Virus record (IMG/VR): IMGVR_UViG_3300043410_000816
Span: 1 to 34,363 of that record
Source of the DNA: a virus
DNA: 34,363 nucleotides
Reading direction: 5' to 3' (one strand)
A program made the position numbers and the translations under genes. Position 1 is the stretch's first letter. Each line of letters begins with the position of its first letter. Positions 1-34,363 of the stretch are shown here, piece by piece. Below the pieces are notes generated by a model, which did no database searches, was not told the DNA's origin, and was given only the letters and a program-made list of their open reading frames with translations.

Positions 1-2
1 TA

Positions 3-608
3 GATAACTATAATAGATTAGCTGACTTCGAATATTATCCTGTAAATATACAAAGATATGCGGACAAGAACGGATTAGCTTACTCTGAAGCTTATAAAGA
101 AGTTAAAGAGTTTGCTATTAAACACATGGAGGAAACCTTATTCGTAAAGCTAGCTAACGGTTCAACTTGGGGAACTCCTTTAATCTATGACATAGAGTTC
201 TGTGATGACATTAAATTCTTAAAGATTAAATGGAATAAAGAAGTTATACCTCTAATTAGCGGAACTATGGAGAACGGAAAGTTCTTACGCTATGATGCTA
301 GGATGGATTCTACTTCTAGCAATAAAGTCTATCTACTTTCTGAACTTTTACAAAAAAACTTATATAGGTTAAGCCTAAGACCTTTTTCTTTTACTCTAAG
401 TATTATGGAAATTAGAGAAGCTACTGGAACTGTACATAGTTATCCAGAGTACTATGAACTAAAACGTAACGTAATTACCCCTACTTTAAAGGAAATGGCG
501 GAAACTATAGGAGAGAAACTTGTCTTAGCTAAAGGAAATAGACGAGAAGTGACATTTATACGAGCTAAAGAGACTGAAACTAGAACTTTACTACCAACTG
601 GAGTTTAA
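3..608 (+). CDS. Rep_3-family replication initiator, 5' end cut by window edge
   Basis: The frame is open from the first bases of the window to TAA at 606-608 (201 residues visible), so the gene starts outside. The ATG at 126 lies in this frame but has no Shine-Dalgarno sequence and is not the likely start. The visible part matches the WH1 winged-helix domain of Rep_3 plasmid initiators: an I-P-L-I-S-G segment, F-L-R-Y-D-A-R-M, a Y-L-L-S-E-L-L helix, then E-I-R-E-A-T-G, a Y-E-L-K-R-N-V-I helix leading into L-K-E-M, and a wing strand ending K-G-N-R-R-E-V-T-F-I. Rep_3 proteins bind iterons and open the origin of theta-replicating plasmids. The protein stops soon after this domain, with no obvious WH2; the next ORF starts 2 bases later and could supply a second DNA-binding domain. 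Family call made by recall of motifs. Confidence 0.75.
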   Translation, partial: DNYNRLADFEYYPVNIQRYADKNGLAYSEAYKEVKEFAIKHMEETLFVKLANGSTWGTPLIYDIEFCDDIKFLKIKWNKEVIPLISGTMENGKFLRYDARMDSTSSNKVYLLSELLQKNLYRLSLRPFSFTLSIMEIREATGTVHSYPEYYELKRNVITPTLKEMAETIGEKLVLAKGNRREVTFIRAKETETRTLLPTGV

Positions 609-610
609 CA

Positions 611-964
611 ATGCACAAATTATTCGATAGAATCAAACTAGAGTTAGCTTTAGATGCTAAATGGGAAGCTAATCCTGCTTTAAAAGAACTATTTACAGGT
701 AATCCTAAGGATTTCTACTTACGAAAACCAGATATAAGAAAGAGAAACAAAGTTAGTAGGCAGTATGTCTATCCTATACTTAGAAGTCTTAGTGAGATTT
801 ACGGTATCCAAACTATTTCTATAGATACTAATAAAACCATAGATATAACTATTTATCTTCTACATGAAACTGAGGAGATACTGTTTAACCAACTTATCGA
901 AGAGTTTAGCTGTGAAGGATTAACTTTCGCGGCTATTTGTAATGATAAGATAATTGATTTATAA
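611..964 (+). CDS. Unknown protein, possible winged-helix DNA-binding domain
   Basis: 117 residues. It starts 2 bases after the Rep_3 stop, with GGAG at 600-603 and 7-base spacing, so it is translationally coupled to the initiator. I do not recognise the family. Residues about 40-85 are basic (R-K-R-N-K-V-S-R), then a helix (Y-V-Y-P-I-L-R-S-L), then two short beta strands around I-Q-T-I-S-I-D and I-D-I-T-I-Y-L. This is the shape of a recognition helix followed by a wing. It could be the detached second domain of the initiator or an independent replication/copy-control protein; the sequence alone does not decide. Confidence 0.6.
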   Translation: MHKLFDRIKLELALDAKWEANPALKELFTGNPKDFYLRKPDIRKRNKVSRQYVYPILRSLSEIYGIQTISIDTNKTIDITIYLLHETEEILFNQLIEEFSCEGLTFAAICNDKIIDL

Positions 965-982
965 ACCTAGCTATGGTATAAT
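954..982 (+). promoter_or_regulatory. Sigma70-type promoter with extended -10
   Basis: TTGATT (954-959), 17-base spacer, perfect TATAAT (977-982) preceded by TGG at 974-976, which gives an extended -10. It lies at the 3' end of the preceding ORF and would start transcription near 989, in front of the 46-residue ORF, nrdJb and the small membrane peptide. The -10 overlaps a perfect inverted repeat, so regulation is likely. Confidence 0.65.
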
Positions 983-1009
983 AGTCTCTAACTTAAAGGA
1001 GACTATTAT
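978..1009. promoter_or_regulatory. Perfect 11-bp inverted repeat spanning -10, RBS and start codon
   Basis: ATAATAGTCTC (978-988) and GAGACTATTAT (999-1009) are exact reverse complements separated by 10 bases. The left arm contains most of the -10 box. The right arm contains part of the Shine-Dalgarno AAAGGAG and the first two bases of the ATG at 1008. It could be a repressor operator, or in read-through RNA a hairpin hiding the ribosome-binding site. Confidence 0.65.
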
Positions 1010-1148
1010 GACCGACTCAAAACAACCAACTGAACTCTCTTATCTTGAAAAGTTAAGAGCTAGAGAACTTAAAGACACACCCTTAAAAGAGGACACTGAA
1101 AATGACTTTCAAAATCAACCAGAAGATAACAGCCTACAAAGTAGTTGA
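1008..1148 (+). CDS. Small acidic protein of unknown function
   Basis: 46 residues, hydrophilic, rich in Glu, Asp, Lys and Gln, with no membrane segment. The ATG at 1008 is chosen over an in-frame TTG at 954 because AAAGGAG (996-1002) sits just upstream and the TTG falls in the promoter -35. Its 3' end overlaps the nrdJb-like gene by 47 bases in another frame, so the two may be translationally linked. First gene behind the promoter/palindrome at 954-1009. Function unknown; a small regulator or a leader ORF are both possible. Confidence 0.55.
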   Translation: MTDSKQPTELSYLEKLRARELKDTPLKEDTENDFQNQPEDNSLQSS

Positions 1149-1743
1149 CAAAACTGAACCCACAACTCCAGAGTCAACTATTCAAGTAATGAATGAGTTT
1201 ATCTCCAGACCCGACTTTCTAATAGGAACTACCTATAAAATCAAAACTCCCCAGTCAGAGCACGCCATGTATATAACTATTAATGACATGATTCTTAACG
1301 AAGGAACAGCTGACGAGTTCAAACATCCCTACGAGATGTTCATCAACTCCAAAAACATGGAACACTTCCAGTGGGTACTTGCACTTACGCGGCTTATCAG
1401 TGCAGTTTGGAGAAAAGGAGGTAATGCGCACTTCCTCATTGAGGAGTTAAAGAATGTCTTTGACCCCAAGGGCGGTTACTATAAGCGGGGAGGAGTCTAC
1501 ATGCCCTCAATAGTTGCTGAAATAGGTCATGTAATAGAGAAACATTTACTGGCTATGGGTTACTATGTAGCTGAAGTAGACCCTAACTTACAAAAGTTCC
1601 TCCAAGAGAAGCGGGAAGAGGTCAGTTCTAGTTCAGAATTCCCAGAGTCAGCTACTTTATGTTCGAAATGCTCAACTAAAGCTCTAGTTTTACTTGATGG
1701 TTGCCAAACTTGCTTAAACTGTGGAGAATCTAAATGTGGCTAG
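1102..1743 (+). CDS. nrdJb: NrdJb-like C-terminal part of B12-dependent (class II) ribonucleotide reductase
   Basis: 213 residues. The middle (about 45-150) is a TSCPD-type domain with Y-K-I-K-T-P, F-I-N-S-K-N-M-E-H-F-Q-W, L-T-R-L-I-S-A-V-W-R-K-G-G, F-D-P-K-G-G-Y and P-S-I-V-A-E-I-G. The C-terminus carries six cysteines (187, 190, 201, 204, 207, 212) ending S-K-C-G, as at the C-terminus of adenosylcobalamin-dependent reductases. In Pseudomonas the class II enzyme is split into NrdJa (catalytic) and NrdJb, and this protein matches NrdJb along its length. No catalytic NrdJa lies in the window, so it may act with a partner elsewhere in the phage or with a host enzyme. Class II reductases make deoxynucleotides without oxygen. 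ATG 1102 has AGAGG about 9-10 bases upstream. Base composition looks slightly richer in C than neighbours, which may indicate host origin. Confidence 0.85.
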   Translation: MTFKINQKITAYKVVDKTEPTTPESTIQVMNEFISRPDFLIGTTYKIKTPQSEHAMYITINDMILNEGTADEFKHPYEMFINSKNMEHFQWVLALTRLISAVWRKGGNAHFLIEELKNVFDPKGGYYKRGGVYMPSIVAEIGHVIEKHLLAMGYYVAEVDPNLQKFLQEKREEVSSSSEFPESATLCSKCSTKALVLLDGCQTCLNCGESKCG

Positions 1744-1814
1744 ATACTGACCTCGCTGTTACAGTAATAATAGCTCTAGCTATTACCCTTGTAACCTTAC
1801 TCTTTGTAGAGTAA
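1734..1814 (+). CDS. Tiny single-span membrane peptide
   Basis: 26 residues. It begins inside the last codons of the nrdJb-like gene (10-base overlap, different frame) with GGAG at 1723-1726 and 7-base spacing. Four residues after the first Met are M-W-L-D-T-D-like and polar, followed by an almost unbroken hydrophobic stretch of about 19 residues (L-A-V-T-V-I-I-A-L through L-L-F-V) and a final Glu. It ends 8 bases before the convergent endolysin gene. Too short for family assignment. The good ribosome site and clean membrane segment argue that it is real; it could be a lysis accessory or a membrane-enzyme regulator. Confidence 0.45.
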   Translation: MWLDTDLAVTVIIALAITLVTLLFVE

Positions 1815-1822
1815 CTTCCCTC

Positions 1823-2173
1823 TTAACCTTTCCATCTTGCATGACCTTCTCTTACATCAACATGAGTGAAGGTCTTGTAGCTTCCCAAACCTCCAATTCT
1901 ATCCCCGAAAGTAGTTTCAAGCCAAGCTTGTACATCTGAAGGGTGCATATCTTTAATCTTAATATCAGCTGCATTACCTAAAACGTGTTGAGAGTGTTTA
2001 GCTCCTCCAACCTCAGCATTATGCTTCTCGCACCGCTTTCCACTCATAATAGTAATAGGTTTACCAACTTTAGTGCGGATTTCTTCCAGTAAGTCAACTA
2101 ACTTCGGACTCACTTCCATCTCTTGACACCCACAATGGCACATAAACTCACTAGGTTTAAAGTGTTCGCTCAT
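1823..2173 (-). CDS. Endolysin: M15-family zinc peptidase
   Basis: 116 residues, the size of single-domain M15 phage lysins (VanY/L-Ala-D-Glu peptidase type). Visible motifs: N-terminal F-M-C-H-C-G-C, S-G-K-R at 44-47, H-N-A-E-V-G-G-A, S-Q-H-V-L-G-N-A-A-D at 61-70 and F-T-H-V-D-V-R at 102-108. His63, Asp70 and His104 are the expected zinc ligands and Asp106 is near the active site. It cuts peptide bonds in peptidoglycan at the end of infection. No signal peptide is visible, so it would depend on the holins encoded just upstream. Its start overlaps the stop of the second holin-like gene by 4 bases; GAGAGGT lies upstream. Last gene of the minus-strand operon. Confidence 0.88.
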   Translation of the reverse strand: MSEHFKPSEFMCHCGCQEMEVSPKLVDLLEEIRTKVGKPITIMSGKRCEKHNAEVGGAKHSQHVLGNAADIKIKDMHPSDVQAWLETTFGDRIGGLGSYKTFTHVDVREGHARWKG

Positions 2174-2412
2174 TTCTTACCTCTCAAAAGTAAAATAGTT
2201 TTAAGTTTCTGTTCCACGCGAATCATATCATTATCTAGGACTCGAATCTGGTCTATAAGTTCTACAAGTACGATGTAAGCTTCCTCTAGTATAGGCTTAA
2301 TCATAGTTGTAGTCCATAACCAGACAAAGTAGACAATATAACCCATACCCGCAGCAGCTATTATAGGAAAACCATACTGATTTATATAGTTAGCAAGCTC
2401 TTTAAGGTCCAT
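2170..2412 (-). CDS. Holin-like membrane protein 2
   Basis: 80 residues: one membrane span at about 14-35 (Y-G-F-P-I-I-A-A-A-G-M-G-Y-I-V-Y-F-V) followed by a helical, coiled-coil-like tail and a basic end (R-G-K-K). The ATG at 2412 is chosen because AAGGAG lies 9 bases upstream and the start then aligns with holin-like protein 1. A second in-frame ATG six codons earlier (2430) has no ribosome site and itself precedes the AAGGAG. The protein is a diverged copy of its upstream neighbour (shared G-F-P-I, A-A and G-M/M-G segments, similar length, same layout), suggesting a holin/antiholin pair. Next to the endolysin gene, with a 4-base overlap. Confidence 0.68.
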   Translation of the reverse strand: MDLKELANYINQYGFPIIAAAGMGYIVYFVWLWTTTMIKPILEEAYIVLVELIDQIRVLDNDMIRVEQKLKTILLLRGKK

Positions 2413-2653
2413 TAGGAGGTTCTCCTTCATTTGGAAGTTCTAAAGCTCTTGAAAGTAGCTTATCTATCTTTACAATATCCTGTGACATACCAGAAACTCG
2501 TAAGTCAAGTTGTTTTATGATAGCTATTAGACTTTTAACCTTCTCAAGTACAGAATCTAAGATAAACTTCTGCGTGAGGAAGACGAAATACATCCCCACG
2601 CAAGCAGCTGCTATTGGAAATCCTACTTCAGTTATAAAGTTTAGAAAGTCCAT
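2402..2653 (-). CDS. Holin-like membrane protein 1
   Basis: 83 residues: short N-terminus, one hydrophobic span at about 10-30 (G-F-P-I-A-A-A-C-V-G-M-Y-F-V-F-L), then an amphipathic helical region with regular hydrophobic spacing and a Pro-rich end. A paralogue of the next gene, which overlaps its 3' end by 11 bases. No Shine-Dalgarno is visible before ATG 2653, so translation may depend on the upstream gene ending 10 bases before. Position next to an M15 endolysin supports a role in membrane permeabilisation. Small virion or fibre-linked membrane proteins of this shape also exist, so the holin role is inferred. Confidence 0.68.
   Translation of the reverse strand: MDFLNFITEVGFPIAAACVGMYFVFLTQKFILDSVLEKVKSLIAIIKQLDLRVSGMSQDIVKIDKLLSRALELPNEGEPPNGP
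2414..2426 (-). promoter_or_regulatory. Hairpin enclosing the holin-2 ribosome-binding site
   Basis: Read on the minus strand: AGGAG, three-base loop AAC, CTCCT. The 5' arm is the Shine-Dalgarno of the ATG at 2412, so the folded RNA would hide it. The other in-frame ATG (2430) lies immediately upstream of the hairpin. This resembles in principle the structure-controlled dual start of lambda S, though the details differ. Confidence 0.5.
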
Positions 2654-2663
2654 AGGTTTTAAA

Positions 2664-3092
2664 TTAAGTTAAAGGAGTAGATTGAGCATTAACTAATACC
2701 CAAGATACAGTTGGCTCGTCCCACTCATAGAAATTTCCATCCTGCGGGTAAGGTACTGGAGGATTCCAGCTCATAGTAGCTAAGTCACCTATCCAAGAAG
2801 GGTAAGGTTTTCTAGCTTGATGTTCAGTTTCTTTATCCGTATTAAACTCCTCTTCCGTAAGAACTTTTATAACACCATTTAGATATACACTGGCATCATC
2901 ATCACAAGTCCCATAGTATAAAGGTGTCTCTAAATAAACTCCATCTTCTCTTAAACTTATCGGGTAAATAGATTCATTAGAGAATATAAACTGAAAGCCT
3001 TTTACATTAGGTAAACTTGGACCAGAGGTCATAGGAGCTTCGGTACATAATGTATTTGTAACTGCATCTATGTTTGTTAATTTAATATACAT
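2664..3092 (-). CDS. Fibre-associated or fibre-chaperone-like protein
   Basis: 142 residues, soluble, acidic. The C-terminal third has P-Y-P-S-W-I, W-N-P-P-V-P-Y-P, G-N-F-Y-E-W-D-E-P and V-S-W-V, a Trp/Pro-rich pattern I associate with small proteins next to phage tail fibres. It starts with a good AGGAGA at 5-base spacing and lies directly downstream of the Fn3/DUF1566 protein, where fibre chaperones often sit. Whether it is virion-bound or an assembly factor cannot be told from sequence. Confidence 0.5.
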   Translation of the reverse strand: MYIKLTNIDAVTNTLCTEAPMTSGPSLPNVKGFQFIFSNESIYPISLREDGVYLETPLYYGTCDDDASVYLNGVIKVLTEEEFNTDKETEHQARKPYPSWIGDLATMSWNPPVPYPQDGNFYEWDEPTVSWVLVNAQSTPLT

Positions 3093-3100
3093 ATAATCTC

Positions 3101-4459: not shown

Positions 4460-4470
4460 AATTAAGTACC

Positions 4471-4866
4471 TTAGGAAATATCTTCATAACTAATTATATA
4501 GTTAATTTTACTAGCTATCCCAGAAGTTACAATAATAGATGTACCTTCTTCAAGATAAACAGCAGTAGATTTATCAAGTACGTTAAGTGTCGCACCTGCT
4601 GGAATAGCTACCGTAAAGATTATCGGATAAGCTGTACCGTCACTAGGAGCAGAACCTTTAGCTACTGCGCCATTAGTATAGATTGAAACAGTTGCGCTGA
4701 TTGAGTTAGTTCCGTCAACATTAGCTGCTAAAATTTGATTTACTTTAAAAACTTTACCACTTGCTGCTGGATTAGGCAAAAGAACAACTGCTGTCGTTAC
4801 CGCTGGGGTAAGATAAGTTGTCTTAGCATAAATATTTGCAACATTAACTATATTAGGTGCTGCCAT
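4471..4866 (-). CDS. Small beta-rich virion protein (hypothetical)
   Basis: 131 residues starting M-A-A-P-N-I-V-N-V, with GGAGG 9 bases upstream. Alternating hydrophobic residues suggest an all-beta fold; it has P-A-A-S-G-K-V-F-K-V-N-Q-I near residue 35 and a closing Y-I-I-S-Y-E. Small proteins beginning this way are common in fibre regions of aquatic phages, where they are annotated as structural proteins of unknown role. Position between fibre and receptor-binding genes suggests a fibre-network component. Confidence 0.6.
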   Translation of the reverse strand: MAAPNIVNVANIYAKTTYLTPAVTTAVVLLPNPAASGKVFKVNQILAANVDGTNSISATVSIYTNGAVAKGSAPSDGTAYPIIFTVAIPAGATLNVLDKSTAVYLEEGTSIIVTSGIASKINYIISYEDIS

Positions 4867-4871
4867 TTAGA

Positions 4872-8096: not shown

Positions 8097-8104
8097 AAAA
8101 CCTT

Positions 8105-8338: not shown

Positions 8339-8340
8339 AT

Positions 8341-8700: not shown

Positions 8701-8721
8701 ATAAATACTCTATTTTCTTGG

Positions 8722-8750
8722 ATAGTAACATAACTGACCGCATGAGTCAA
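8722..8750 (-). promoter_or_regulatory. Promoter of the minus-strand fibre/lysis operon
   Basis: Read on the minus strand: TTGACT (8750-8745), 17-base spacer, TACTAT (8727-8722), with TGT before the -10 (extended -10). It is placed to transcribe everything from 8700 down to the endolysin at 1823. The -35 touches a 14-bp palindrome at 8749-8762. Confidence 0.6.
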
Positions 8751-8762: not shown

Positions 8763-8797
8763 AATTTTAAACTTTTCTAAGTATTTTAGTTTAAATT

Positions 8798-8826: not shown

Positions 8827-8856
8827 TCAGACAAAATTTAACATAGTGAGGACGAC

Positions 8857-9429
8857 ATGACAACCTTAGACCCAACTAATAAAGCTATTATAGACCTAGA
8901 TGCTCCAGCTAGTCCTGCAGTTCTAGCAGGTATTTTAGATATTCCAGTATCTATGGTTCACCAAGGACGGCAAGATGGTAAACTTCCGACTAAGACCTCA
9001 GCTAGTTACCGTGAAAATATCCGTCAATATATTTATCATTATAAGAAGAAAGTAAGCTCTCGGTCAACTTCTATGGGTGAAGCTAAACTAGCTCAAGACA
9101 TTAGGAATGGAATTGCCAAAGAATATTTACAATGGATGGAAATCAAAACTATAAAAGAAGAAGTTATAGACATTGCGGTTATGAAGGAACTATTCGAACC
9201 AGTGTTCCAGATTATACGAAGCTCTCTGATAAATATCTCAAGACAGCATCCGGAGACAGTAACTACTATAGACAATACTTTAGAAAGTTTATACTCTTTA
9301 GGTCATAAGTTAGCAGAAGCAGCTAATGAGGATTCAAGACACTATGTCCAACTTATGCTAGATAAAGACCTTTCTATGAATGAAGCTGAAGAAGAACTTG
9401 AAGAACTATTTGACACGGAGGTTTTATGA
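8857..9429 (+). CDS. Terminase small subunit (Nu1-type role)
   Basis: 190 residues, first gene of the plus-strand morphogenesis block and immediately before terminase large in function order. The N-terminal region (about 18-50) has the spacing of a winged helix: P-A-V-L-A-G-I-L-D-I-P-V-S-M-V then R-Q-D-G-K-L-P, like the DNA-binding head of lambda Nu1. A long helical middle and acidic C-terminus (E-E-E-L-E-E-L-F-D) suit the oligomerisation and large-subunit contact parts. It recognises phage DNA for packaging. GAGGAC lies 7 bases upstream. Its stop overlaps the start of the HNH gene (ATGA). Confidence 0.8.
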   Translation: MTTLDPTNKAIIDLDAPASPAVLAGILDIPVSMVHQGRQDGKLPTKTSASYRENIRQYIYHYKKKVSSRSTSMGEAKLAQDIRNGIAKEYLQWMEIKTIKEEVIDIAVMKELFEPVFQIIRSSLINISRQHPETVTTIDNTLESLYSLGHKLAEAANEDSRHYVQLMLDKDLSMNEAEEELEELFDTEVL

Positions 9430-9938
9430 TTACCCAAGCAGACTTACATGAATTATTTTACTACGATAAAGATACAGGAATCTTTACTAGAAAAATAGAT
9501 GTTGGTAAAAGAGCTAAAGCTGGGGATATTATCACAAATACAAATAATAACGGCTATATAGTTATTGTAATAGATAGACAGAAATATCAAGGTCATAGAA
9601 TGGCTTGGTTATATGTATATGGCTGTTTACCTAAATACTTAGACCATAAGAATGGTATAAGACATGATAATAGAATAGAAAACCTAAGAGAATGTACTAT
9701 GGCAGAAAATAATTCTAATAGAAGTACAACAGCTATAGGTGACTCTGGGCATAAAGGAATTCTTTGGTCTTATAAATATAATTCTTATGTAGCTAGATTA
9801 GCTGTAAATAAGCAAAGATTTCAAAAAACTTTTACAATTAGCAAATTTCCTAGTAAAGAAGAAGCTTTAAAAGCAGCTGTAAATTGGTTAGCTGAATTAA
9901 GAACAGAACATCACAAGGAGTTTGCTTGTTATGGTTGA
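9426..9938 (+). CDS. HNH endonuclease with AP2-type DNA-binding domain
   Basis: 170 residues. HNH core at about 55-95: G-H-R-M-A-W-L-Y, Y-L-D-H-K-N-G-I-R-H-D-N-R-I-E-N-L-R-E and E-N-N-S-N. The C-terminal domain (about 113-155) has K-G-I-L-W-S-Y-K-Y-N-S-Y-V-A-R and R-F-Q-K-T-F, typical of the AP2 fold in free-standing phage homing endonucleases. It sits between the two terminase genes, overlapping the first by 4 and the second by 8 bases, and is visibly more AT-rich than its neighbours, consistent with later acquisition. Some cos phages need an HNH protein for packaging, but the AP2 domain favours a homing endonuclease. Its last codons contain the ribosome site of the large terminase. Confidence 0.85.
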   Translation: MITQADLHELFYYDKDTGIFTRKIDVGKRAKAGDIITNTNNNGYIVIVIDRQKYQGHRMAWLYVYGCLPKYLDHKNGIRHDNRIENLRECTMAENNSNRSTTAIGDSGHKGILWSYKYNSYVARLAVNKQRFQKTFTISKFPSKEEALKAAVNWLAELRTEHHKEFACYG

Positions 9939-11862
9939 GTTAGATTTAGATACAACTTGGGGAGAAAGGCTCTTTATTGGAAAAGCTCTACAACTTTTCA
10001 AGAAACCAAACAGAATGTCTACAAGAGAGTGGGCAGAAACTAATAGGTTTTTAACCTCAGATGTTTCTTCACGTCCAGGAAAGATGAACTGTATGGAAAC
10101 TCCTTGGATGCTGTTTGTAATGGAATGTCTTGATAATCCAGAGATAGGAGTTATTGTAGGTAAAAAGTCAGCTCAAATTGCTTGGACAGAAACTATTAAC
10201 AACTGGATAGGGAGAACTATTGACCTAGACCCTAGAAATATAATGATAGCTTTTCCTAGAGCAGCTTCAGCTCAGAAGTTCTACAAAGAAAAGTTAGTTC
10301 CATATATAAAACACACTCCTGTACTTAAAGAAAAGATTGGGAGTTTAGCTAAAGTATCTCATAAGCATATACCTTATGATGGAGGTTTCTTAGTTTTAGC
10401 TAATGCGGGAACAGCTGAAGACGGAAAGTCCTCTGTAATACCTTATGTAGTTGTAGAAGAGCCAGATGGTGTTAAGAAAGACGTTAATAATCAAGGAGAT
10501 GGGATGGCTATCCTTAAACAAAGGATGAAGTCTTTCTCTGACAGTAAACTCATCTATGCTGGTACTCCTACAGATAAAGACTTTAGTCAAGTAGATTTAG
10601 CTTACGAACAAAGTAATAAGATGGTCTACTTAGTCCCTTGTCATCTTTGCAGTGAGTTCCACGCATTAAGTTTCGATAACTTAAAGTGTGATGAATGGCA
10701 AGAAAGAAAGATAGATGAGTTTTATGGGATATATAATCCCGAAACAGCTTATTATGAATGTCCCTTCTGTAAAGGAATCTGGAACAATGAAGATAAGAAT
10801 AGAAACGTGCTTAATGCTATTAACTTTCACAATCTGGGTTGGGTTAGCTCTAATCCTAGTGTATCTGACACTTATGGATTCGCCTTTAACGAACTGTTAA
10901 GTTCATTTGAAGCTTCTTCTCTTGTAAACTTAGCTAAACAAAAGCTTAAAGCTCAACGTGCATATGATAATGGGCATGAAGGTTTAATGAAGAGCTTCAC
11001 TAATAACTCTAAAGGCGAAGCTTATGTACCTTTAAATGCTGGCTTAAGTATAGATGAGATGAAAGCTAGAAGACTGAACTACCCAGAAACAGTAGTCCCT
11101 TATGAAGGTCTTATCATTACAGCAGGTATTGACGTACAGCATAATCGTTTTGCTATAGTAACTAGAGCTTGGGGTCGAAATGGTAACTCTTGGCTGGTGA
11201 ACTGGATTGAGATTTTCGGAGATGTACTTGATTATAGTGATGCAGTTTGGGGTAAACTATCTGACTACATCTTTCAGAAATGGACTCATGGGGCTGGTAA
11301 AGGTAAGTTCTTAACCATCTCAGCTGCTTCTATTGACTCTGGTGATGGGGCGACAGCTGAACTAGTATATAGATGGGTCTCAGAGATGAACCTTAAGCAT
11401 CAACATATCTTTGCTTGTAAAGGTATTGGGGAACTTAAGTACAACAACTACGAGATATTTAATGAACCAAACACTATGGAAGTAGGTTCAAGTACTCAAG
11501 AAAGAAAGACTTTAGCTCAAACTATGGGTGTGAATGTCTTTCCTATGGGAGCTTACCGTGCGCATGAAGAAGTTCTTCGCAGATGTAACCTTAAAGGTAA
11601 TAGAGATAGACACTATCACTGTGAAACTATGTATGGCGGTTATGAAGAAGGGGTTCTCTCTTGCCGTAAAACATTTGAAACAGATACAACTAAAGCTGGC
11701 TATAAGCTGATTGCAGGTAAACATAAAGAAGCTATTGACTGCGAAAAGATGGCTCTTCATGCTGCTTATGCTATACAGATTAGAAACTATAACAACTTTC
11801 ACTGGGCTGCTTTAGAAGCTCATCTACACGTTAATTCCGAAACTGGAGATTTTAATGCCTAG
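9931..11862 (+). CDS. Terminase large subunit, lambda gpA type
   Basis: 643 residues, similar to lambda gpA (641). ATG 9931 is chosen over TTG 9922 because AAGGAG (9915-9920) lies 10 bases before it. ATPase: Walker A-like V-G-K-K-S-A-Q-I-A-W-T-E at about 76-87, Walker B V-V-V-E-E-P-D at 173-179, coupling G-T-P-T at 211-214. A zinc-finger-like C-H-L-C (237-240) and C-P-F-C (277-280) is typical of gpA. Nuclease domain: G-I-D-V-Q near 399-403 and A-S-I-D-S-G-D-G near 466-473. It cuts concatemeric DNA and drives it into the prohead, suggesting cohesive-end (cos) packaging, though no cos site could be located. Confidence 0.95.
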   Translation: MVELDLDTTWGERLFIGKALQLFKKPNRMSTREWAETNRFLTSDVSSRPGKMNCMETPWMLFVMECLDNPEIGVIVGKKSAQIAWTETINNWIGRTIDLDPRNIMIAFPRAASAQKFYKEKLVPYIKHTPVLKEKIGSLAKVSHKHIPYDGGFLVLANAGTAEDGKSSVIPYVVVEEPDGVKKDVNNQGDGMAILKQRMKSFSDSKLIYAGTPTDKDFSQVDLAYEQSNKMVYLVPCHLCSEFHALSFDNLKCDEWQERKIDEFYGIYNPETAYYECPFCKGIWNNEDKNRNVLNAINFHNLGWVSSNPSVSDTYGFAFNELLSSFEASSLVNLAKQKLKAQRAYDNGHEGLMKSFTNNSKGEAYVPLNAGLSIDEMKARRLNYPETVVPYEGLIITAGIDVQHNRFAIVTRAWGRNGNSWLVNWIEIFGDVLDYSDAVWGKLSDYIFQKWTHGAGKGKFLTISAASIDSGDGATAELVYRWVSEMNLKHQHIFACKGIGELKYNNYEIFNEPNTMEVGSSTQERKTLAQTMGVNVFPMGAYRAHEEVLRRCNLKGNRDRHYHCETMYGGYEEGVLSCRKTFETDTTKAGYKLIAGKHKEAIDCEKMALHAAYAIQIRNYNNFHWAALEAHLHVNSETGDFNA

Positions 11863-12126: not shown

Positions 12127-13572
12127 ATGTCACTACCTTATGATTCAGAAGAATTCTACTACTCAAGAGCTAAGCAACAAGCTTTTGACGGTGCTGTTAC
12201 TAACTATAGACTTGAACAGAAAGGTTTAGTTACTGGAGAGTCGGACCTTTTAGCAGCTAGAGAACTTAATCTTCTCTGGCAACGCTCACATCATGCTGTT
12301 AGGAATAATGGCTGGGCAAAGACAGCTAAGACTAAGAACCTTATTAACCTTAATGCTATTTCTGTAAAATGGAAAGATGATAAAGGTAAAGTTAACAAAA
12401 AGATGCAAGCTCTTTGGGATACTTTTGCAGCTGACCCTAACCTAGATGGTTATGGTACTTTAGACAACACTCAAGAAGCTTGGAATGGGGCTATGTTTGA
12501 GTCTGGAGAAGCTCTTTGCCGAATGTTGATTAAGAAAAGAGCTGGTCATCCTATTCCTTTAGTTCTTCAGAATATTGAAGCTGAGTACTTAGACCCTAAC
12601 TTTACTAATGGAAGTCCTCAAACCACCCGTAATGGTATTAAGTTTGAAAATAGCAAACCAGCTATTTACTACTTTAGTAAAAGAACTCCTAACTTTAACT
12701 TATTTAACTTATATTCTATTGAGAAAGTTGAAGTACCTGCGGATGAAGTTCTCCACTTGTTTGTTCGTGACAGACCTGGGCAATGGAGAGGTGTTCCAAC
12801 TTTAGCTCCTATTCTCTTACCTTTATATGAACTTGACGACCTTACCGATGCTACAGTTGCTAAACAAAAAGCTGCACAAGCTATTAGCTGGGTTATTCGC
12901 AATACTAATCCTGCTGCCGCTGTTTCTGTCGGCTCTGCTCTTAATAGTGTTGACCCAAATGACATTGACCAGTCTACAGGTAAGCGAAGAGTGGTTACAC
13001 AAGCTTCTGGAGGAGGTGTTCAATATCTAAATAAAGGTGAAGATATTAACTTCTATCAAGGTACAGATATTGGAGCTAACTTACCCGAACTTATAAAGTC
13101 TGAACTACATAAGATTGCCCAAGCTTCTGGACTTACTTATGAAGTTTTAACTGGAGACCTTACAGGTATTAGTTTTTCAGCTCTTCAGCAAGTAGCTATT
13201 GATATGAAAACTAGAGCCGAGTTCATGTATAAGTTTTATATTGTAAACTTAGGTTTAAAACCATTATGCAATAGATTTAGAGAGCTTGCTGCTATTTATA
13301 GTAATAAAAGCTTTGCTAATTTAACTCCTACATTCCAATATCCAAGAAAGTATGGTGTTAATGACTTGAAAGATGCTCAAGCTGACCTCTTAGAAGTTCA
13401 GTCTGGTTTTGCTACTTGGGAAAGTAAACTTGAGGAAAGAAACTTAACTGTTGAAGAGATTGTTGAGGATAAAAAGATTCAACAACAAAGTGGGGTTAGC
13501 TTTGAACCTACTGTTCAGAATACAAACCAGACTAAGAATGTAAAGGCAAATCCTAATTCTGCTGGAATGTAA
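12127..13572 (+). CDS. Portal protein, lambda gpB type
   Basis: 481 residues (lambda gpB 533). Portal_2-type features: N-terminal Y-Y-S-R-A-K-Q-Q-A-F, R-E-L-N-L-L-W-Q-R-S-H-H-A-V-R-N-N near 46-63, Q-N-I-E-A-E-Y-L-D near 143, L-H-L-F-V-R-D-R-P-G-Q-W-R-G-V-P near 209-225, and S-G-L-T-Y-E-V-L-T-G-D-L-T-G near 340. It forms the dodecameric DNA channel at one head vertex. It starts 2 bases after gpW and is followed by a 74-base gap holding a promoter-like signal in an inverted repeat. Confidence 0.93.
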   Translation: MSLPYDSEEFYYSRAKQQAFDGAVTNYRLEQKGLVTGESDLLAARELNLLWQRSHHAVRNNGWAKTAKTKNLINLNAISVKWKDDKGKVNKKMQALWDTFAADPNLDGYGTLDNTQEAWNGAMFESGEALCRMLIKKRAGHPIPLVLQNIEAEYLDPNFTNGSPQTTRNGIKFENSKPAIYYFSKRTPNFNLFNLYSIEKVEVPADEVLHLFVRDRPGQWRGVPTLAPILLPLYELDDLTDATVAKQKAAQAISWVIRNTNPAAAVSVGSALNSVDPNDIDQSTGKRRVVTQASGGGVQYLNKGEDINFYQGTDIGANLPELIKSELHKIAQASGLTYEVLTGDLTGISFSALQQVAIDMKTRAEFMYKFYIVNLGLKPLCNRFRELAAIYSNKSFANLTPTFQYPRKYGVNDLKDAQADLLEVQSGFATWESKLEERNLTVEEIVEDKKIQQQSGVSFEPTVQNTNQTKNVKANPNSAGM

Positions 13573-15246: not shown

Positions 15247-16392
15247 ATGGCTCGTTTTGCTACTCCTTATGAATTAAATGAGATTTACGGTACACTTACT
15301 GACCGTAACTATCCAACTCCTACCGAGTTACAATCTAACTTTGGTATCATGCAACCTTTTGAAACTGAAACTATTAACTTAGATAAAGTTTCTCCAGACT
15401 TGCGTATTGGTATCTTTGTAGCCCCAGATGCACAAGCTAAACCAACTGTTGCTCGTGGCTACCAAACTAAAGTATTCTATCCAGCTTACTGGAAAGATAA
15501 AACTACAGTTGATTTCAGAAACATCCGTGCAAGAAAAGTTGGTGAGCAGATTTCTGTTCCTACTTCAAACGCTGGGCGTATTGCTTCTGCTTTACAAGAT
15601 AACATGATGTTAATGCAAGCTAAACGTGACCGTTTACTTGAATGGATTGCATCACAAATCTTACTTTATGGTTCTTATGTTGCTACTTCAGAAAGACATC
15701 CTTCTGTTCTTGTAGACTTAGAACCAAACATTGCAACTGACGCTGCAAGTTTAAACGGTGGTAAAGCTAACCGTGCAAACTTAACAGGTACTGCAGTTAA
15801 CTTACCTACAGGTGGTACTTTACCAGTTATTACTGATAATGGTGGCGCAGGTAAACGTGCTTGGGGTTCTACAGGCGGTACTAAAGCTGTATCTCCTATT
15901 GCTGACTTACAACAAATGTTAGATGCAGCTTGGGAACCAATCAGCAAAATCTATATGTCTGACGATGCTTGGTTAGAAGTAACTAAAGACGCTAGTTTTG
16001 CAACTGTGATTTCAACTTTAATCACAACTACTTCTTCTTTCTTAGTTGACCTTTTACCACGTCAACAATCTAAAGAAGGTTTAAAACTTCGTGGTACTAT
16101 TGCTGGTATTCCTATTTGGACATACAATGCAGCATACCAAGGTACTTCAAGTGCAGCTACTAGCTTAACTAAGTTTATTCCAGCTGGTTGGGTAGTTATG
16201 GTTCCAGCTGCAACTTATGGTATCCAAGCTTATGGTGCAATTCAACATGGTGCTGCAGATTTTACAGCAACTGAAATGTTCTGGAACTCTTGGATTGAAG
16301 ATGAGTTTGGAACACCATGGTTGCAGGGACAATCTAGCCCATTGATGCTTCACACAAAAATCAACTCAACTGTTGCTTGGCGCGTGATGTAA
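15247..16392 (+). CDS. Major capsid protein, lambda gpE type
   Basis: 381 residues (lambda gpE 341). PF03864-type features: P-F-E-T-E-T-I-N-L-D near 37, L-R-I-G-I-F-V-A-P near 52-60, R-N-I-R-A-R-K-V-G near 91, a D-A-A-W-E-P-I segment near 230, and the closing F-G-T-P-W-L-Q-G-Q-S-S-P-L-M-L. A Gly/Thr-rich loop at about 165-215 is longer than in lambda. Arg codons are mostly CGT here, whereas most neighbours use AGA, consistent with very high expression. HK97 fold expected. GAGGT precedes the ATG. Confidence 0.93.
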   Translation: MARFATPYELNEIYGTLTDRNYPTPTELQSNFGIMQPFETETINLDKVSPDLRIGIFVAPDAQAKPTVARGYQTKVFYPAYWKDKTTVDFRNIRARKVGEQISVPTSNAGRIASALQDNMMLMQAKRDRLLEWIASQILLYGSYVATSERHPSVLVDLEPNIATDAASLNGGKANRANLTGTAVNLPTGGTLPVITDNGGAGKRAWGSTGGTKAVSPIADLQQMLDAAWEPISKIYMSDDAWLEVTKDASFATVISTLITTTSSFLVDLLPRQQSKEGLKLRGTIAGIPIWTYNAAYQGTSSAATSLTKFIPAGWVVMVPAATYGIQAYGAIQHGAADFTATEMFWNSWIEDEFGTPWLQGQSSPLMLHTKINSTVAWRVM

Positions 16393-24545: not shown

Positions 24546-24553
24546 GAGGGAAG

Positions 24554-29600: not shown

Positions 29601-32181
29601 TGTTAGAGACTATTTCATTTATAGAGGAACTATAGCTAACTTTGTAGCTGATGAAACTACTTTATACTATAAAGGTCCTAGTAACTCAGTAGCTTTAACT
29701 ACACCAGATATTGCAACTTACTACTATAAGTGTGCTATTTCTGATAGTTTTGGGGAAACTGGTCTTCAGGTTTCAAGTTCAATTTCAGCTAAATCTCTTG
29801 AAGGTAATGCTAACTTTGTAACTATCTCTGGAGAGCAGTTCTTTACTTATGCTTCTGGAGCTACAACTCCTAGAAACTCAACTATTACTTTAACTGCAAC
29901 TTTACATGGTACTTTAACTACTTATTTATGGCAGTATTGGAATGGAAGTACTTGGGTAACTTTGTCTGGGACAGCTGTAGGACAGAATTATATACTTTAC
30001 CCAGACAATACCGCTTGGGGAACTTCTAAGTTACTTAGAATTAGATGTCTTTCAGATACTATGGCTGGAGAAATTAGTATTGTTAAGGTTTCTGATGGAG
30101 CTAATGGTATTCCAGGATATACTACAGCTACAGTCTACATCTATCAAAGACTTGCAGGAACTAACCCTCCAGCTTTACCTACTGTAACTACAACTTATAC
30201 TTTTGCATCTGCAGTTCTTACTGGGTTAAATAACGGATGGGTAACTTCTATTCCTGTAGGTACTGACCCTTTGTATGTTTCAGCTGCTACTGCTTCCGCT
30301 GGGACTGCAACTGATACTATATCTGCTAATGAATGGGCGACTCCAGTTGTGTTAGCTAGGAATGGTACTGACGGAAATCCTGGAACTCCGGGAGCTAATG
30401 GTATAAATACAGCTACTATCTATTTATATCAAACAACTACAACTTCAACTCCTCCAAGTTTGCCTAATGCGGATGTTATTTATACGTTTGCAACTGGAAC
30501 TACAACTGGAGTTACTAATGGTTGGGTACGTTCACTACCAACTACAGGAAGCTATCGATGGGTAACTACGGCTACTGCTTTAAGTACTGCAACTACAGAT
30601 ATTATTCCAAGTTCTGAGTGGGCGGCTGTAAGTTTACTTGCTCAAGATGGTGTGAATGGTACTAGAACTGCTATTTTAGATATGTACCAGTGGTCAGCTT
30701 CTGCTCCTACAACATTTCCAGCAGGTACATCTACTTATACATGGGCAACAGGACAGTTTACTGCTCCTGGGACTTTGAATGGTTGGAATTTAGTTCCTCC
30801 TGCCGCTGTAAAAGGTCAAACTTTATATGTAACTAGAACTGTCTATGCTGATTCTGGTACTACAGCTACTACTTCCATTACTTGGAATGCTACTACTGCT
30901 ACTCCTAGAGGTTTAGCAGGTACTGACGGTACTAATGGCTCAAGAACTGCCTTTATGGAGCTATACCAGTGGGCAGCTAGTACTCCAAGTAGCTACCCAA
31001 GTGGAATTTCAACTTATACTTGGTCTAATGGAGTATTTACAACTCCTACTACAGCTAATGGTTGGTCGTTACTTCCTGGTGCGCCTACTAAAGGTTACAC
31101 TCTATATGCTATAGGTCAAAGTTATAGCGATACTGGGACTAGTGGAACTACTAATATAACTTGGTCAAGTAACACACCTTACCCAGTTGGTTTAGCAGGT
31201 TCTGATGGACCGCAAGGACCTCAAGGAAATACTGGACCGCAAGGACCTCAAGGTCCGCAGGGTACTCAAGGTGTAGTTGGACCTTCTGGTAAGTCAGCTG
31301 TAAGAGCTTATCAAGTAACTTCTAGTGCAGGTACTCCTCCAACTTATACAACCTCAACAAGTAATGGGGTTTTACCTGGAGTTAGTTGGTCAAGTACACA
31401 AGGAACTGTAGGTGTGAATCAGTTCCAATGGCAGATAGATGGTATTGCGGACTATAGTACTGGCACTACAACTTGGACAAATCCATACCTTAGTGTATTT
31501 AAAGTTGATACTTTAGCTGCTTTTACGGTTAATACTGGAGCTTTAACGGTTAATAACGCACTTACAGTTAGTACTGGAGGTGTTATTAAGTCTGGTATGA
31601 CTGATTTTGCGGCTGGAACTGGTTATTGGTTAGATTATAATGCTGGTACACCTAGATTTAGCATTGGAACTGGGTCTGCAGGTACTCTAACTAAAGGTAT
31701 TAGCTGGAATGGAAGTACTTTTACAGTAGCTGGAGAGGTTATTACAACAAATAACATAGCCGCCCTAAATGTAACCGAAATTACGTCAGCTACTTATGGT
31801 GTTAATATAACTCTCCCAGCAAATAGTGGAGGTTCTGTAAACACAACTACAGTGTTTTCTAGTTTTGTGATACCAAGTGTTAATGTTTCTACAGAAAGAA
31901 CTTTCATTTTAACTATGACTATGTCACATACAGATAGTACTTGTGGATATTTTAGAATAACTATAGGAGGAATTTCCTTTACCTCAGATGCTAATAGTAG
32001 ATTAGTCGATGGGTCTAATGTAACTACTTATACTTTTGTAGGAAAGAAAACTATAGGAGCAAATGTTACTGATTTTGGTAATTGCTATGTTGATTTAGTT
32101 AACGGAGCTTCAGCTAATTACTGGAACTCTGGGACTCCTTTTGCTACAATTAGACTTTCAGTTTTCACAGGTAAAAGATAA
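26638..32181 (+). CDS. Central tail tip/host specificity protein, gpJ-like
   Basis: 1847 residues, longer than lambda gpJ (1132). N-terminal part: G-K-G-G-G-S-T-E-Y-K-D-T-L-I-S-E-Q, V-L-R-like T-L-R-D-A-T-Q and N-R-I-P-E-I-M-F-K-V-K-G-K near 300-325, Y-D-V-L-T near 365, a tip (phage-tail_3) domain to about 700, then Fn3-like beta domains (about 850-1080). A module at about 112-163 (Y-Y-R-I-T-S-L-G-N-T-V-W ... G-T-G-T-G-T) looks inserted. Residues about 1154-1521 are four repeats of about 90 residues separated by short G-x-x runs. A collagen-like stretch (G-P-Q-G-P-Q-G type) spans about 1521-1550, followed by a beta-rich C-terminal receptor-binding part. Overlaps the next ATG by 1 base. Confidence 0.9.
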   Translation: MSTELIIAGEMGKGGGSTEYKDTLISEQTVKTLFAVGEGIIDSVENVYLDTVEIANFDATLVYRVGTSSQEVIDGFTVTESPLPGFTAKNIIRDSTKPTGQELPNVSTGITVPVTNLVKNTYYRITSLGNTVWGPVYEGGPKAAVGVVFKAAKAGTGTGTTVQMQPNFQVPETIVSIPYEEAMKSVRCSFTFSALSKTDRDGNIVGSTVVFEVYVRNNTTTGLWTLLNNKQYTVKGKTTHGYTFDLEINRPVTATTTWQIKVIRITPDSGTVKKQDTMQWSAVTQLYHNDLTYPGTALAAVTLRDATQFGNRIPEIMFKVKGKKIRLPTNYTPSTSIAVGTYNGNWDGTLHTTYLQYSNNPAWCLYDVLTDTVSGLGIPEADLDKYSFYNLGKYCDDSLPNGYSEAVVCRDNGELLEEAYPLYIPRHTLDYSFNTRENVKDFLSQILSLCNANLITNEFGQIAVIFQQRGQIVKRNVTNANVIDGTFTYQSSNIEQRTNLVNVTYNRGLNFGRTDTATVSDDSLIDRYGLRPTDVVLPGCYYEAQAIRKARWVLYTNCYFTDFVTFSVFLDGMTYKIGDLIRVYDNYNQTNTQSGLLTSAVISGSSTTLTFDREISLPAGTYTFHSYDSSGNEVTKVISGGITLNNIVISSALSINVGVVFVIAGTSEGKIYRVTSISRSEENIYSVTALEFDEAIFDYVDSGLNLTQKTGDFANVGQFSTVPVESISVKENFGTNGTYTNGRLQVSWVWDSAKTQKYRANFKVTWLLDDGIPTIIDTITSDTYDIMNPVPGVYTISVWAVNSFTGIYSQVLTTTYNFRTVISNSTLLPPINVRIAGTTPALIQPATLEFSTPELTLTFDYNPENQSVDDALYDYLAEVWDSTGATKVESYSLNPVIGDETVDPIDEYLLYKPINGTFALPFNRNVNIFSGTAARTFIVKLYSRDTLGDLSLPIEVTVTNPVPVFTSFSVTPDFGKVRVDIEASSEIDVRDYFIYRGTIANFVADETTLYYKGPSNSVALTTPDIATYYYKCAISDSFGETGLQVSSSISAKSLEGNANFVTISGEQFFTYASGATTPRNSTITLTATLHGTLTTYLWQYWNGSTWVTLSGTAVGQNYILYPDNTAWGTSKLLRIRCLSDTMAGEISIVKVSDGANGIPGYTTATVYIYQRLAGTNPPALPTVTTTYTFASAVLTGLNNGWVTSIPVGTDPLYVSAATASAGTATDTISANEWATPVVLARNGTDGNPGTPGANGINTATIYLYQTTTTSTPPSLPNADVIYTFATGTTTGVTNGWVRSLPTTGSYRWVTTATALSTATTDIIPSSEWAAVSLLAQDGVNGTRTAILDMYQWSASAPTTFPAGTSTYTWATGQFTAPGTLNGWNLVPPAAVKGQTLYVTRTVYADSGTTATTSITWNATTATPRGLAGTDGTNGSRTAFMELYQWAASTPSSYPSGISTYTWSNGVFTTPTTANGWSLLPGAPTKGYTLYAIGQSYSDTGTSGTTNITWSSNTPYPVGLAGSDGPQGPQGNTGPQGPQGPQGTQGVVGPSGKSAVRAYQVTSSAGTPPTYTTSTSNGVLPGVSWSSTQGTVGVNQFQWQIDGIADYSTGTTTWTNPYLSVFKVDTLAAFTVNTGALTVNNALTVSTGGVIKSGMTDFAAGTGYWLDYNAGTPRFSIGTGSAGTLTKGISWNGSTFTVAGEVITTNNIAALNVTEITSATYGVNITLPANSGGSVNTTTVFSSFVIPSVNVSTERTFILTMTMSHTDSTCGYFRITIGGISFTSDANSRLVDGSNVTTYTFVGKKTIGANVTDFGNCYVDLVNGASANYWNSGTPFATIRLSVFTGKR

Positions 32182-32618
32182 TGGAAAATACAACTAAAAG
32201 TTACACTTTTTATGAACCTAATGGCAAAATTACATCTAACTTAACAGCTTCTTTAGAAGTTTTTGAGTTAGTAGCAGCTTCTAGTGGTTTCAACTACATA
32301 GAAGGAGAGTACTCTCAAGAGTTTTACTATGTAAAAGATGGTCTGCCTATAGAAAAACCTCCAAGACCAGACTTTACTTACGATTTTAACTATACTAGTT
32401 ATAGTTGGGAGCCTAATTTAACTATAGCTGAGTTAAAAGTCAAAAATATTCGTAATCAACTTCTCCAAGAAAGTGATTGGACAGATACAGTATCAGCTCA
32501 GCCTAGACTTGGAGAAACTTTATATAATGCTTGGCAAACTTACAGACAAGAACTTAGAGATATTACTTTACAAGCTGGATACCCACTTGAAGTAGTGTTT
32601 CCAAGTCCTCCTCAGTAG
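32181..32618 (+). CDS. Tail fibre assembly chaperone-like protein (Phage_tail_APC-type C-terminus)
   Basis: 145 residues. The C-terminal 60 residues have the pattern R-N-Q-L-L-Q-E-S-D-W-T-D-T, a short loop, then W-Q-T-Y-R-Q-E-L-R-D-I-T and a closing Y-P-L-E-V-V-F-P-S-P-P, diagnostic of the phage tail assembly chaperone C-terminal domain that often follows fibre genes. The N-terminal part is less conserved. Overlap with the gpJ stop (TAATG) suggests it acts on the gpJ C-terminus, or that it is a tip-associated product. Confidence 0.8.
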   Translation: MENTTKSYTFYEPNGKITSNLTASLEVFELVAASSGFNYIEGEYSQEFYYVKDGLPIEKPPRPDFTYDFNYTSYSWEPNLTIAELKVKNIRNQLLQESDWTDTVSAQPRLGETLYNAWQTYRQELRDITLQAGYPLEVVFPSPPQ

Positions 32619-32848
32619 GTAGTTTGGGTAAAAGCGTCAAGTTTCTGTCTAATGTCGGATTCTTGACGCAAAATTCCCTAAATATTTCTTGAAATTACTC
32701 CGAAACAAGAGTAAACTAACTAAAATAGCAACTTAATTTTATAATTAAACACCCTTTAGTTATAAACTTAACTTGCTGATAAAGGTTTTGAGTAGCTATT
32801 ACTCAAAAATGACACTGCATTACAGTGGGAAGAACTAGGAGATTGACT
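32619..32848 (+). other. Gene-free 230-base region with three inverted repeats
   Basis: No ORF fits here. It holds GCGTCAAG (32634-32641) paired with CTTGACGC (32662-32669); TTTTGAGTA (32786-32794) paired with TACTCAAAA (32800-32808), a 9-bp stem with 5-base loop; and CACTG (32813-32817) paired with CAGTG (32823-32827). An AT-rich core (32700-32765) includes TATAAT at 32740-32745 without a matching -35; TTGAAA (32689) with TAAACT (32712) at 17 bases is a weak promoter candidate. No T-tract follows the stems on the plus strand. On the minus strand the first stem is followed by TTTT. Possible control region, packaging or replication site. Confidence 0.5.
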
Positions 32849-33640
32849 ATGGCAGTCGATTCTACAAGTACAGGTTCAGGTATTGACTTGAACAATCTCT
32901 TTCAATCAGCAATTACAGGTGGTAATATGGGTAACTTATTCGGTGGTTCAAGTGATAACATGGGCGGTGGCTTGATTGGAGGTCTTATTCTAGGTAGTTT
33001 ACTTAGAAATAATGGTAATCTATTCGGTGGAGCTGATGGTGGAGCAGCTGGAGCTATGTTAAGAACTCCTCCCGAACAAGCTACTGCAAATATGTCTTTA
33101 ATGGCGGGTATTGGTGATGTAAAACAAGCAGTAGCTGTTAATGCGGCTAATGCTGATACTTCAAATGCTATGCAAACTAATGCTCTATCGAGTCAACTTT
33201 CTGGTATTGCTGCTGCTTTAACTAATACTGTAACTATGGCTAAAGATTCGGCTTCAGCTAATGCAGTTACTTTAATGCAGCAGTTAAATACTGTAAATAC
33301 AAACTTGATGGAGAGTAAATTTGAACTTTCTCAAGCTATTACCAATGATGGCGAGAAAACTAGAGCTTTGATTACTCAGAATATGGTTACAGAACTTAAT
33401 AACCAACTTGCTGACTTGAGAACTAAACAAGCAGTTCAAGATAATGGTATTACAGTTACTAATAACATTAATCAGAATCAAGCTCAGCAACAACAGCAGC
33501 AACAGTTAGGGTATGTAGTTAACGCTTTGAATGGAGTTGTTAGTGAACTTCAAAGAAACACACAATCTGTGGTTAATCTTGGAACAATGTCGGGTTCAGC
33601 TGGTTCACAAACAGCTAATAACACTAGAGTTAATGGCTGA
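32849..33640 (+). CDS. Probable virion structural protein, Gly-rich N-terminus, Gln-rich coiled coil
   Basis: 263 residues; ATG 32849 with AGGAG and 7-base spacing (an upstream in-frame start at 32825 lacks a ribosome site). Residues about 1-75 are Gly/Leu/Asn-rich (L-I-G-G-L-I-L-G-S-L-L) and weakly hydrophobic. About 95-190 is a helical Ala/Asn/Thr region including A-I-T-N-D-G-E-K-T-R-A-L-I-T-Q-N, and near 205-215 comes N-N-I-N-Q-N-Q-A with a run of seven Gln. Proteins of this architecture recur in several phage groups as virion-associated proteins of unknown role. It stands alone behind a long intergenic region, suggesting separate expression. Confidence 0.65.
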   Translation: MAVDSTSTGSGIDLNNLFQSAITGGNMGNLFGGSSDNMGGGLIGGLILGSLLRNNGNLFGGADGGAAGAMLRTPPEQATANMSLMAGIGDVKQAVAVNAANADTSNAMQTNALSSQLSGIAAALTNTVTMAKDSASANAVTLMQQLNTVNTNLMESKFELSQAITNDGEKTRALITQNMVTELNNQLADLRTKQAVQDNGITVTNNINQNQAQQQQQQQLGYVVNALNGVVSELQRNTQSVVNLGTMSGSAGSQTANNTRVNG

Positions 33641-33680
33641 AGTCGGTATGGTCTGGTTAGTTTAGAGGAAAGAGGTCAAG

Positions 33681-34058
33681 ATGAGTGCTTCAATAGACGA
33701 ATTACAGAAAAGAATTGCTGAGTTGCAGCTTGGAATAGCACCTGTAGTGCCAACCCCAGTTGTAAATACTGACCAAGAAGCTATTAAAACTTTAATTAGG
33801 CAAGCTATTCGTGAAGAAATGAGCTTATTGAAGGACTCAACTATAGTTAAACCCGAAACTCCTGTAGTCCCAGCTAGAGAATTAACTATGTTGGAAGCTA
33901 TAGGTCAGTGTTTAACTCCAGAAGAGCAGGTTTGGCTCTCTAAACCAGATATTCTACAACAAGTTGATAAGAAATTAGCAACTTATTTCCAGACGGAGGG
34001 AGGAAAGTCAGCTGTAAAGGCGTTCTTCACCTACTTTCGAGGGTTCTATGAAAATTAA
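33681..34058 (+). CDS. Unknown protein with N-terminal coiled coil
   Basis: 125 residues. N-terminal heptad-like helix (I-D-E-L-Q-K-R-I-A-E-L-Q), a Pro/Val linker, a second helix (I-K-T-L-I-R-Q-A-I-R-E-E), a further Pro-Val linker, then a helical C-terminal half with L-T-P-E-E-Q-V-W-L and F-F-T-Y-F-R-G-F-Y. AGAGGT lies 6-9 bases before the ATG. Not recognised. Overlaps the next gene by 11 bases, so the two are co-expressed with the preceding structural gene. Confidence 0.6.
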   Translation: MSASIDELQKRIAELQLGIAPVVPTPVVNTDQEAIKTLIRQAIREEMSLLKDSTIVKPETPVVPARELTMLEAIGQCLTPEEQVWLSKPDILQQVDKKLATYFQTEGGKSAVKAFFTYFRGFYEN

Positions 34059-34305
34059 ACATACAGTTGAAGCTAGTGCGGAGGAGGTTAATGCCCTCTT
34101 TGACATTAGTATGAAGGCTTGCTTGACTAGTTATAGTACAGTTGAGGAACAGGCAGTTGCAATCTCAGCTGCTAAGGTTGAGTTTGAAAAGTTACTTAAT
34201 AACTATGTCTCGCAGGCTTGCAGACTTGGTAAGAAGTTGGGTAAGGTTCGAGCTGATAGTAAAGATGATGTGATGTACTCGGCTATGGAAACTCCTGTAG
34301 CTTAA
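34048..34305 (+). CDS. Unknown small helical protein
   Basis: 85 residues, soluble, probably all-helical: V-E-A-S-A-E-E-V-N-A-L-F-D, a second helix V-E-E-Q-A-V-A-I-S-A-A-K-V-E-F-E-K-L-L and a basic stretch R-L-G-K-K-L-G-K-V-R. The ribosome site (CGAGGGT) lies inside the previous gene. No family recognised. Confidence 0.55.
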   Translation: MKIKHTVEASAEEVNALFDISMKACLTSYSTVEEQAVAISAAKVEFEKLLNNYVSQACRLGKKLGKVRADSKDDVMYSAMETPVA

Positions 34306-34316
34306 CTTCCACTTAG

Positions 34317-34362
34317 TCCTCTTTCGGGTGTATATTAGAAGTAGTGTATAGCTGAAAGAGGA
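34317..34362. repeat. 9-bp inverted repeat at right window edge with promoter-like core
   Basis: TCCTCTTTC (34317-34325) and GAAAGAGGA (34354-34362) are exact reverse complements, 28 bases apart, in the gene-free end of the window. A TATATT preceded by TG (34329-34336) lies between the arms, the same TG-TATATT seen before the small terminase (8819-8826). No clear -35. It may be an operator around a promoter for a gene beyond the edge. Confidence 0.4.
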
Positions 34363-34363
34363 T

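Follow-up and report, generated by a model that had tools for sequence, protein, structure and literature searches.

Total absence of GATC from a nearly complete lake phage genome and recurrence of the avoidance on other phage backbones

The tetranucleotide GATC is entirely absent from IMGVR_UViG_3300043410_000816, a nearly complete genome of a lambda-like tailed phage of ~35 kb (hereafter, the window, that is, the whole stretch of DNA analyzed here, 34,363 bases, which is the entire IMG/VR virus record). The absence is brought about by synonymous codon choice, is conserved among relatives, and recurs in phages that have other backbones but share genes for lysis and a ribonucleotide reductase (RNR)-like gene with the window. 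We consider it probable, with substantial room for doubt, that restriction by a Type II enzyme of the host, resembling DpnII, MboI or Sau3AI, drove the loss of the sites.

An exact search of the 34,363 bases yielded 0 sites, which confirms the original prediction that GATC is missing from the whole window. From trinucleotide counts (maximal-order Markov model), 74.5 sites are expected (z = -10.5; Poisson probability of zero sites, 4e-33), making GATC the most depleted of all 256 tetramers relative to the Markov expectation; base composition alone gives 116, so that the earlier estimate of about 110 was right for composition. GATC is avoided synonymously, by codon choice in each of the three frames. 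Aspartate codons that precede a C are GAC in all 57 cases and never GAT, compared with 368 GAT and 132 GAC elsewhere; isoleucine after G is never encoded by ATC (0 of 103), and serine after nGA is never encoded by TCN (0 of 15). When codons were shuffled synonymously with the proteins fixed (n = 200), 75.3 sites were expected (SD 6.6, minimum 56). An origin of the absence in composition, codon bias or faulty assembly, with no selection on GATC, is refuted by these shuffles, which give 75 +/- 7 at fixed proteins and codon usage, and by the agreement of independent assemblies from many metagenomes; nothing was found in its favor, and we assign it a negligible probability.

Other palindromic tetramers had also been stated to occur in the window. 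This is the case for AGCT, GTAC, GCGC and TCGA, which are near or above expectation, but not to any comparable extent for CCGG, with only 3 sites against 22 expected; GGCC is found once against 10 expected. GATC is the extreme case among several avoided palindromes. AGCT is over-represented (458 vs 385 expected), also in the clade of the window and in L015 but not in the sister clade; this excess was set aside as a second signal, 379 of the 438 coding copies being in the codon context nnA GCT (alanine).

Relatives reach ~140 bases further to the left and 100 to 850 bases further to the right, so that little of the genome, about 35 kb in all, is missing from the window. One relative comes from metagenome 3300002835, which is among lake data sets (PMC6344600). 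The gene order is a fragment of a Rep_3-like initiator, an RNR-like gene, an endolysin with two small neighbors, minus-strand tail-fibre genes and, after these, the genes for both terminase subunits, portal, protease, capsid, tail, tape measure and a J-like tail tip; some names, such as protease and small terminase, are assigned from gene order only. No tRNAs and no Rfam matches were found in the window. The features of interest are:

Positions 1 to 34363: whole phage contig, GATC-free on both strands (the site is a palindrome).
Positions 126 to 608, plus strand: Rep_3-like replication initiator, C-terminal part; the contig starts within the gene.
Positions 1102 to 1743, plus strand: TSCPD/ribonucleotide-reductase-like gene, common to GATC- and GGCC-avoiding phages of other backbones.
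Positions 1823 to 2173, minus strand: M15 peptidase endolysin, 63-66% identical in G022 and G047.
Positions 2170 to 2653, minus strand: two small paralogous genes adjoining the endolysin (phrog_18771), probably involved in lysis, 60-81% identical in phages of other backbones.
Positions 4471 to 4866, minus strand: small tail/lectin-like gene, 85% identical on L179, a contig of another backbone.
Positions 9426 to 9938, plus strand: HNH/AP2 endonuclease gene, between the small and large terminase genes.
Positions 9931 to 11862, plus strand: terminase large subunit, GpA type (PF05876/PF20454), the query for relatives.
Positions 12127 to 13572, plus strand: portal protein.
Positions 15247 to 16392, plus strand: major capsid protein, the query for five further relatives.

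Several features of these genomes are worth recording in their own right. The gene at 1102-1743, similar to the TSCPD/RNR C-terminal region, is a stand-alone gene of 213 amino acids that is widespread in environmental phages of differing backbones. In the relative G001, the contig ends with a 127-base stretch that repeats its first 127 bases, the start of the rep gene, in reverse complement (L019:17292-17418 and L018:1-127), and G009, from another metagenome, carries the same inverted junction at the contig end (L026:1-99); this may be a terminal inverted repeat, an inversion of the rep gene or an effect of assembly. In G004, a different initiator of 252 amino acids, ~30% identical to plasmid Rep_3/RepM initiators, lies reversed at the same genome end (L022:87-845); this suggests that replication genes of plasmid type are exchanged and that these phages perhaps replicate in a plasmid-like manner.

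A search with the terminase identified 17 relatives (64-96% amino acid identity), and the comparison with related phages that the original prediction had called for showed 16 of them to be GATC-free as well, the exception being L013, with 18 sites against 30 expected. Together, the window and these 16 contain none of about 685 expected sites, a figure that pools homologous stretches and does not represent that many independent trials; five further contigs found with the major capsid protein lack all of 118 expected sites. In a divergence test, each accepted difference of a relative was put singly into the other background. Such single swaps would create GATC in 63 cases for G001 (of 5,948 swaps), 72 for G003, 39 for G004 and 35 for G005, and yet, in every pair with the window, both genomes have zero sites. 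Selection against GATC, as claimed originally, is thus evident from codon choice, conservation in relatives and the GATC-free diverged pairs. On the terminase tree, the count is zero in the clade of the window, L015 and L044, and the observed/expected values are 4/29 in L031, 3/48 in L042, 7/28 in L032, 18/30 in L013 and 27/48 in L035, with ratios of about 1 outside these graded groups. The depletion tracks the phage phylogeny and relaxes step by step in more distant relatives. If hosts are indeed shared, sister lineages with and without GATC (those of the window, L031 and L013) would provide a natural series in which the gain and loss of the pressure could be timed.

Avoidance in this phage group is not specific to GATC but extends to GGCC, CCGG, TCTAGA, CTTAAG and other sites. 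In the clade of the window, the observed/expected counts are 6/130 for CCGG, 3/76 for GGCC, 1/59 for RGCGCY, 9/152 for CTTAAG, 2/122 for RCATGY and 3/111 for TCTAGA; the sister clade has 63/75 for CCGG, 51/74 for GGCC and 35/28 for RGCGCY, yet 0/197 for GATC. A set of avoided sites that changes from clade to clade would be expected if restriction systems turn over. Palindromic hexamers overall are moderately avoided (0.72 of expectation), and the same is seen in T7, N4, lambda and Cp-1, so that general hexamer avoidance does not separate the hypotheses.

These data bear directly on the main rival to restriction, counter-selection through Dam and MutH, under which the host would methylate GATC for mismatch repair, replicating, under-methylated phage DNA would be nicked or broken by MutH, and sites would be lost, a mechanism that has been proposed for phages of enterobacteria. 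T7 and N4, which infect Dam+/MutH+ E. coli, are nearly as depleted (6/141 in T7 and 1/150 in 49 kb of N4; lambda has 116/212), and therefore strictness alone does not prove restriction. Furthermore, phiX174 lacks GATC, the toxicity of MutH to phage DNA has been discussed (PMC5014478, PMC4687349), and the replication, tail and terminase relatives of the window point to proteobacterial hosts, some of which are Dam+/MutH+. However, this mechanism accounts neither for GGCC, which in related settings is lost as strongly as GATC or more so (0/75 in G029, a 79-kb phage of another backbone), nor for the clade-specific loss of CCGG and RGCGCY, and both require restriction in any case. Moreover, phiX174 carrying twenty GATC sites grew without any defect under standard conditions (PMC5014478). 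Avoidance of GATC only is a weak criterion for the Dam/MutH type because T7 and N4 also avoid other palindromes. On balance, we regard Dam/MutH counter-selection as unlikely but deserving serious consideration.

The avoidance recurs on backbones other than that of the window. The RNR-like gene has 77 relatives (53-72% amino acid identity) on contigs of other phages. Among 17 long records of this set compared with the terminase of the window, 16 had no match and one had a distant match of 23%, and what five records examined in full share with the window is chiefly the RNR-like gene, the endolysin or the small genes beside it, and pieces of tail fibre. G029 contains 0 of 245 expected GATC and 0 of 75 expected GGCC sites, with normal GCGC (270/249), and GATC is at 1/152 in G047 and 9/116 in G051. 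The median observed/expected ratios in the 77 RNR-sharing contigs, most of which are related to each other and amount to few lineages rather than 77 trials, are 0.29 for GATC, 0.04 for GGCC and 0.91 for GCGC, compared with 1.03, 0.88 and 1.02, respectively, in 77 distant terminase relatives. Within the RNR-sharing set (L144-L220), GGCC loss is more uniform than GATC loss. Because the depletion is also found in phages of other backbones that have the lysis and RNR-like genes, the pressure appears to act at the level of the host, and the phages that exchange lysis and tail genes may well belong to one host group. Many RNR-sharing contigs have normal GATC and no Dam-family gene was found on them, so the pressure is not uniform. 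The lake phage DSL-LC04, whose sole shared gene is lectin-like, contains GATC at the normal frequency (190/186).

The recurrence also bears on a cause internal to the phage, either a phage-encoded nuclease directed at GATC or a GATC-sensitive step of Rep_3-type replication. The genome does carry a Rep_3-like initiator and an HNH gene, but the same depletion is found in phages with a different replication module, comprising a family A DNA polymerase and helicases, and we consider an internal cause very improbable. The HNH/AP2 gene (9426-9938) is present in the window only, the relatives jumping from ~9405 to 9943; an internal cause acting through this gene was rejected, as the gene is missing from relatives that also lack GATC.

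No D12 methylase was detected in the window and 12 relatives, and no N6/N4 methylase in six relatives, all in records that may be slightly incomplete. Two marks of avoidance of the phage K type are thus present: GATC is under-represented beyond composition and codon use in the window, and no phage-encoded methylase protecting the site was found in the records searched. G054 (L216), which shares the RNR-like gene and encodes a Dam-family methylase, keeps GATC (63/71), as protection would predict, in a single case. A D12-class adenine methylase gene is present on G060 (L222, 31266-31838; the contig of L042), a GATC-poor terminase relative (3/48 in the part read), and this counts against restriction, as does the fact that no restriction gene was seen. 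Restriction of methylated GATC by a DpnI-type enzyme, alone or in alternation with DpnII-type strains as in Streptococcus pneumoniae, would fit the total absence of GATC, since a phage can evade both types only by having no site at all. Such alternation has been described (PMC4687349), and Cp-1, a phage of S. pneumoniae, a species with both types, has 0 of 51 expected sites. Against this stand G054, whose normal GATC content DpnI would punish (one case), and the clade of the window, where no methylase was found that would make methyl-GATC. DpnI-type restriction is accordingly less favored, and we rate its chances as low.

The host of the window phage is probably a proteobacterium, judging from the similarities of the terminase, tail-tip and initiator, which point to proteobacterial hosts. 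No close relative of the terminase and no related locus that would point to the host was found among the genomes of 84,980 species. The Rep_3 initiator compared with plasmids gave best matches of 30% to mixed Gammaproteobacteria, which is not decisive, and the terminase of G029 groups with those of phages of Alteromonas, Pantoea, Vibrio, Escherichia and Aeromonas (53-54% amino acid identity). A cyanobacterial host was considered because methylation of GATC and GGCC is common in cyanobacteria; the position of the G029 terminase among these phages speaks against it. The original suggestion of a host that polices GATC is supported indirectly by the same depletion in phages of other backbones that share the lysis and RNR-like genes; candidate forms of such policing are restriction of unmethylated GATC, DpnI-type restriction and Dam/MutH.

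Under restriction of unmodified GATC, the reading we prefer, the following scenario can be outlined. A lake bacterium, probably a proteobacterium, would be the host of this tailed phage, and its Type II enzyme would cut incoming phage DNA at unmodified GATC. Synonymous changes would remove the sites, GAT C becoming GAC C, G ATC becoming G ATT or ATA, and nGA TCN becoming nGA AGY, after which purifying selection would keep GATC out. Other lineages sharing the lysis and RNR-like genes probably share hosts and carry the same signature together with GGCC loss, and the hosts might hold several restriction systems in varying sets, with GGCC among the further specificities. Restriction would explain the completeness of the loss, the accompanying avoidance of GGCC and CCGG, and the changes from clade to clade. 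We further propose, tentatively, that a group of uncultured lake bacteria with widespread GATC and GGCC restriction barriers shaped several phage lineages, and that the joint loss of these words marks the phages of this host group and could be used for host assignment. If the hosts are indeed shared, missing GATC and GGCC would offer an inexpensive way of sorting such phages by host. In these uncultured lake phages, evasion of a host attack aimed at GATC has become complete, and it is common to backbones between which lysis genes are exchanged; the recurrence with joint GGCC loss is the part that a specialist would follow.

Overall, the window adds a strong example from uncultured lake phages to the already known total loss of GATC, which is well precedented by phage K, Cp-1, N4, T7 and phiX174. 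Marinobacter phage PS3, the closest annotated terminase (35% amino acid identity), resembles the window in its GpA-type terminase and head module but has GATC at expectation (262/265) and encodes a C5 cytosine methylase. T7, N4 and phiX174, for which complete loss of GATC has been reported in the case of phiX174 and counter-selection in enterobacterial phages has been linked to Dam/MutH (PMC5014478), share with the window the total or near-total absence of GATC, and T7 and N4 also avoid palindromic hexamers; unlike the window, they have known, Dam+/MutH+ hosts, and it is in the window's group that loss of GGCC and CCGG accompanies that of GATC. For both phage K and Cp-1, the host species have GATC restriction (PMC6532042, PMC4687349). 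Cp-1 (0/51 in the stretch read) lacks GATC like the window and has a host species with DpnI/DpnII systems, but it is a small phage of a Gram-positive host, and the likeness lies in the loss of GATC. Staphylococcus phage K, which lost GATC in escaping Sau3AI (PMC6532042) and has 0 of 108 expected sites in its first 49 kb, has a known Gram-positive host, and the likeness is one of GATC loss, with no kinship claimed; like the window, it is a tailed phage in which GATC is totally absent, and there the absence is explained by GATC restriction in the host.
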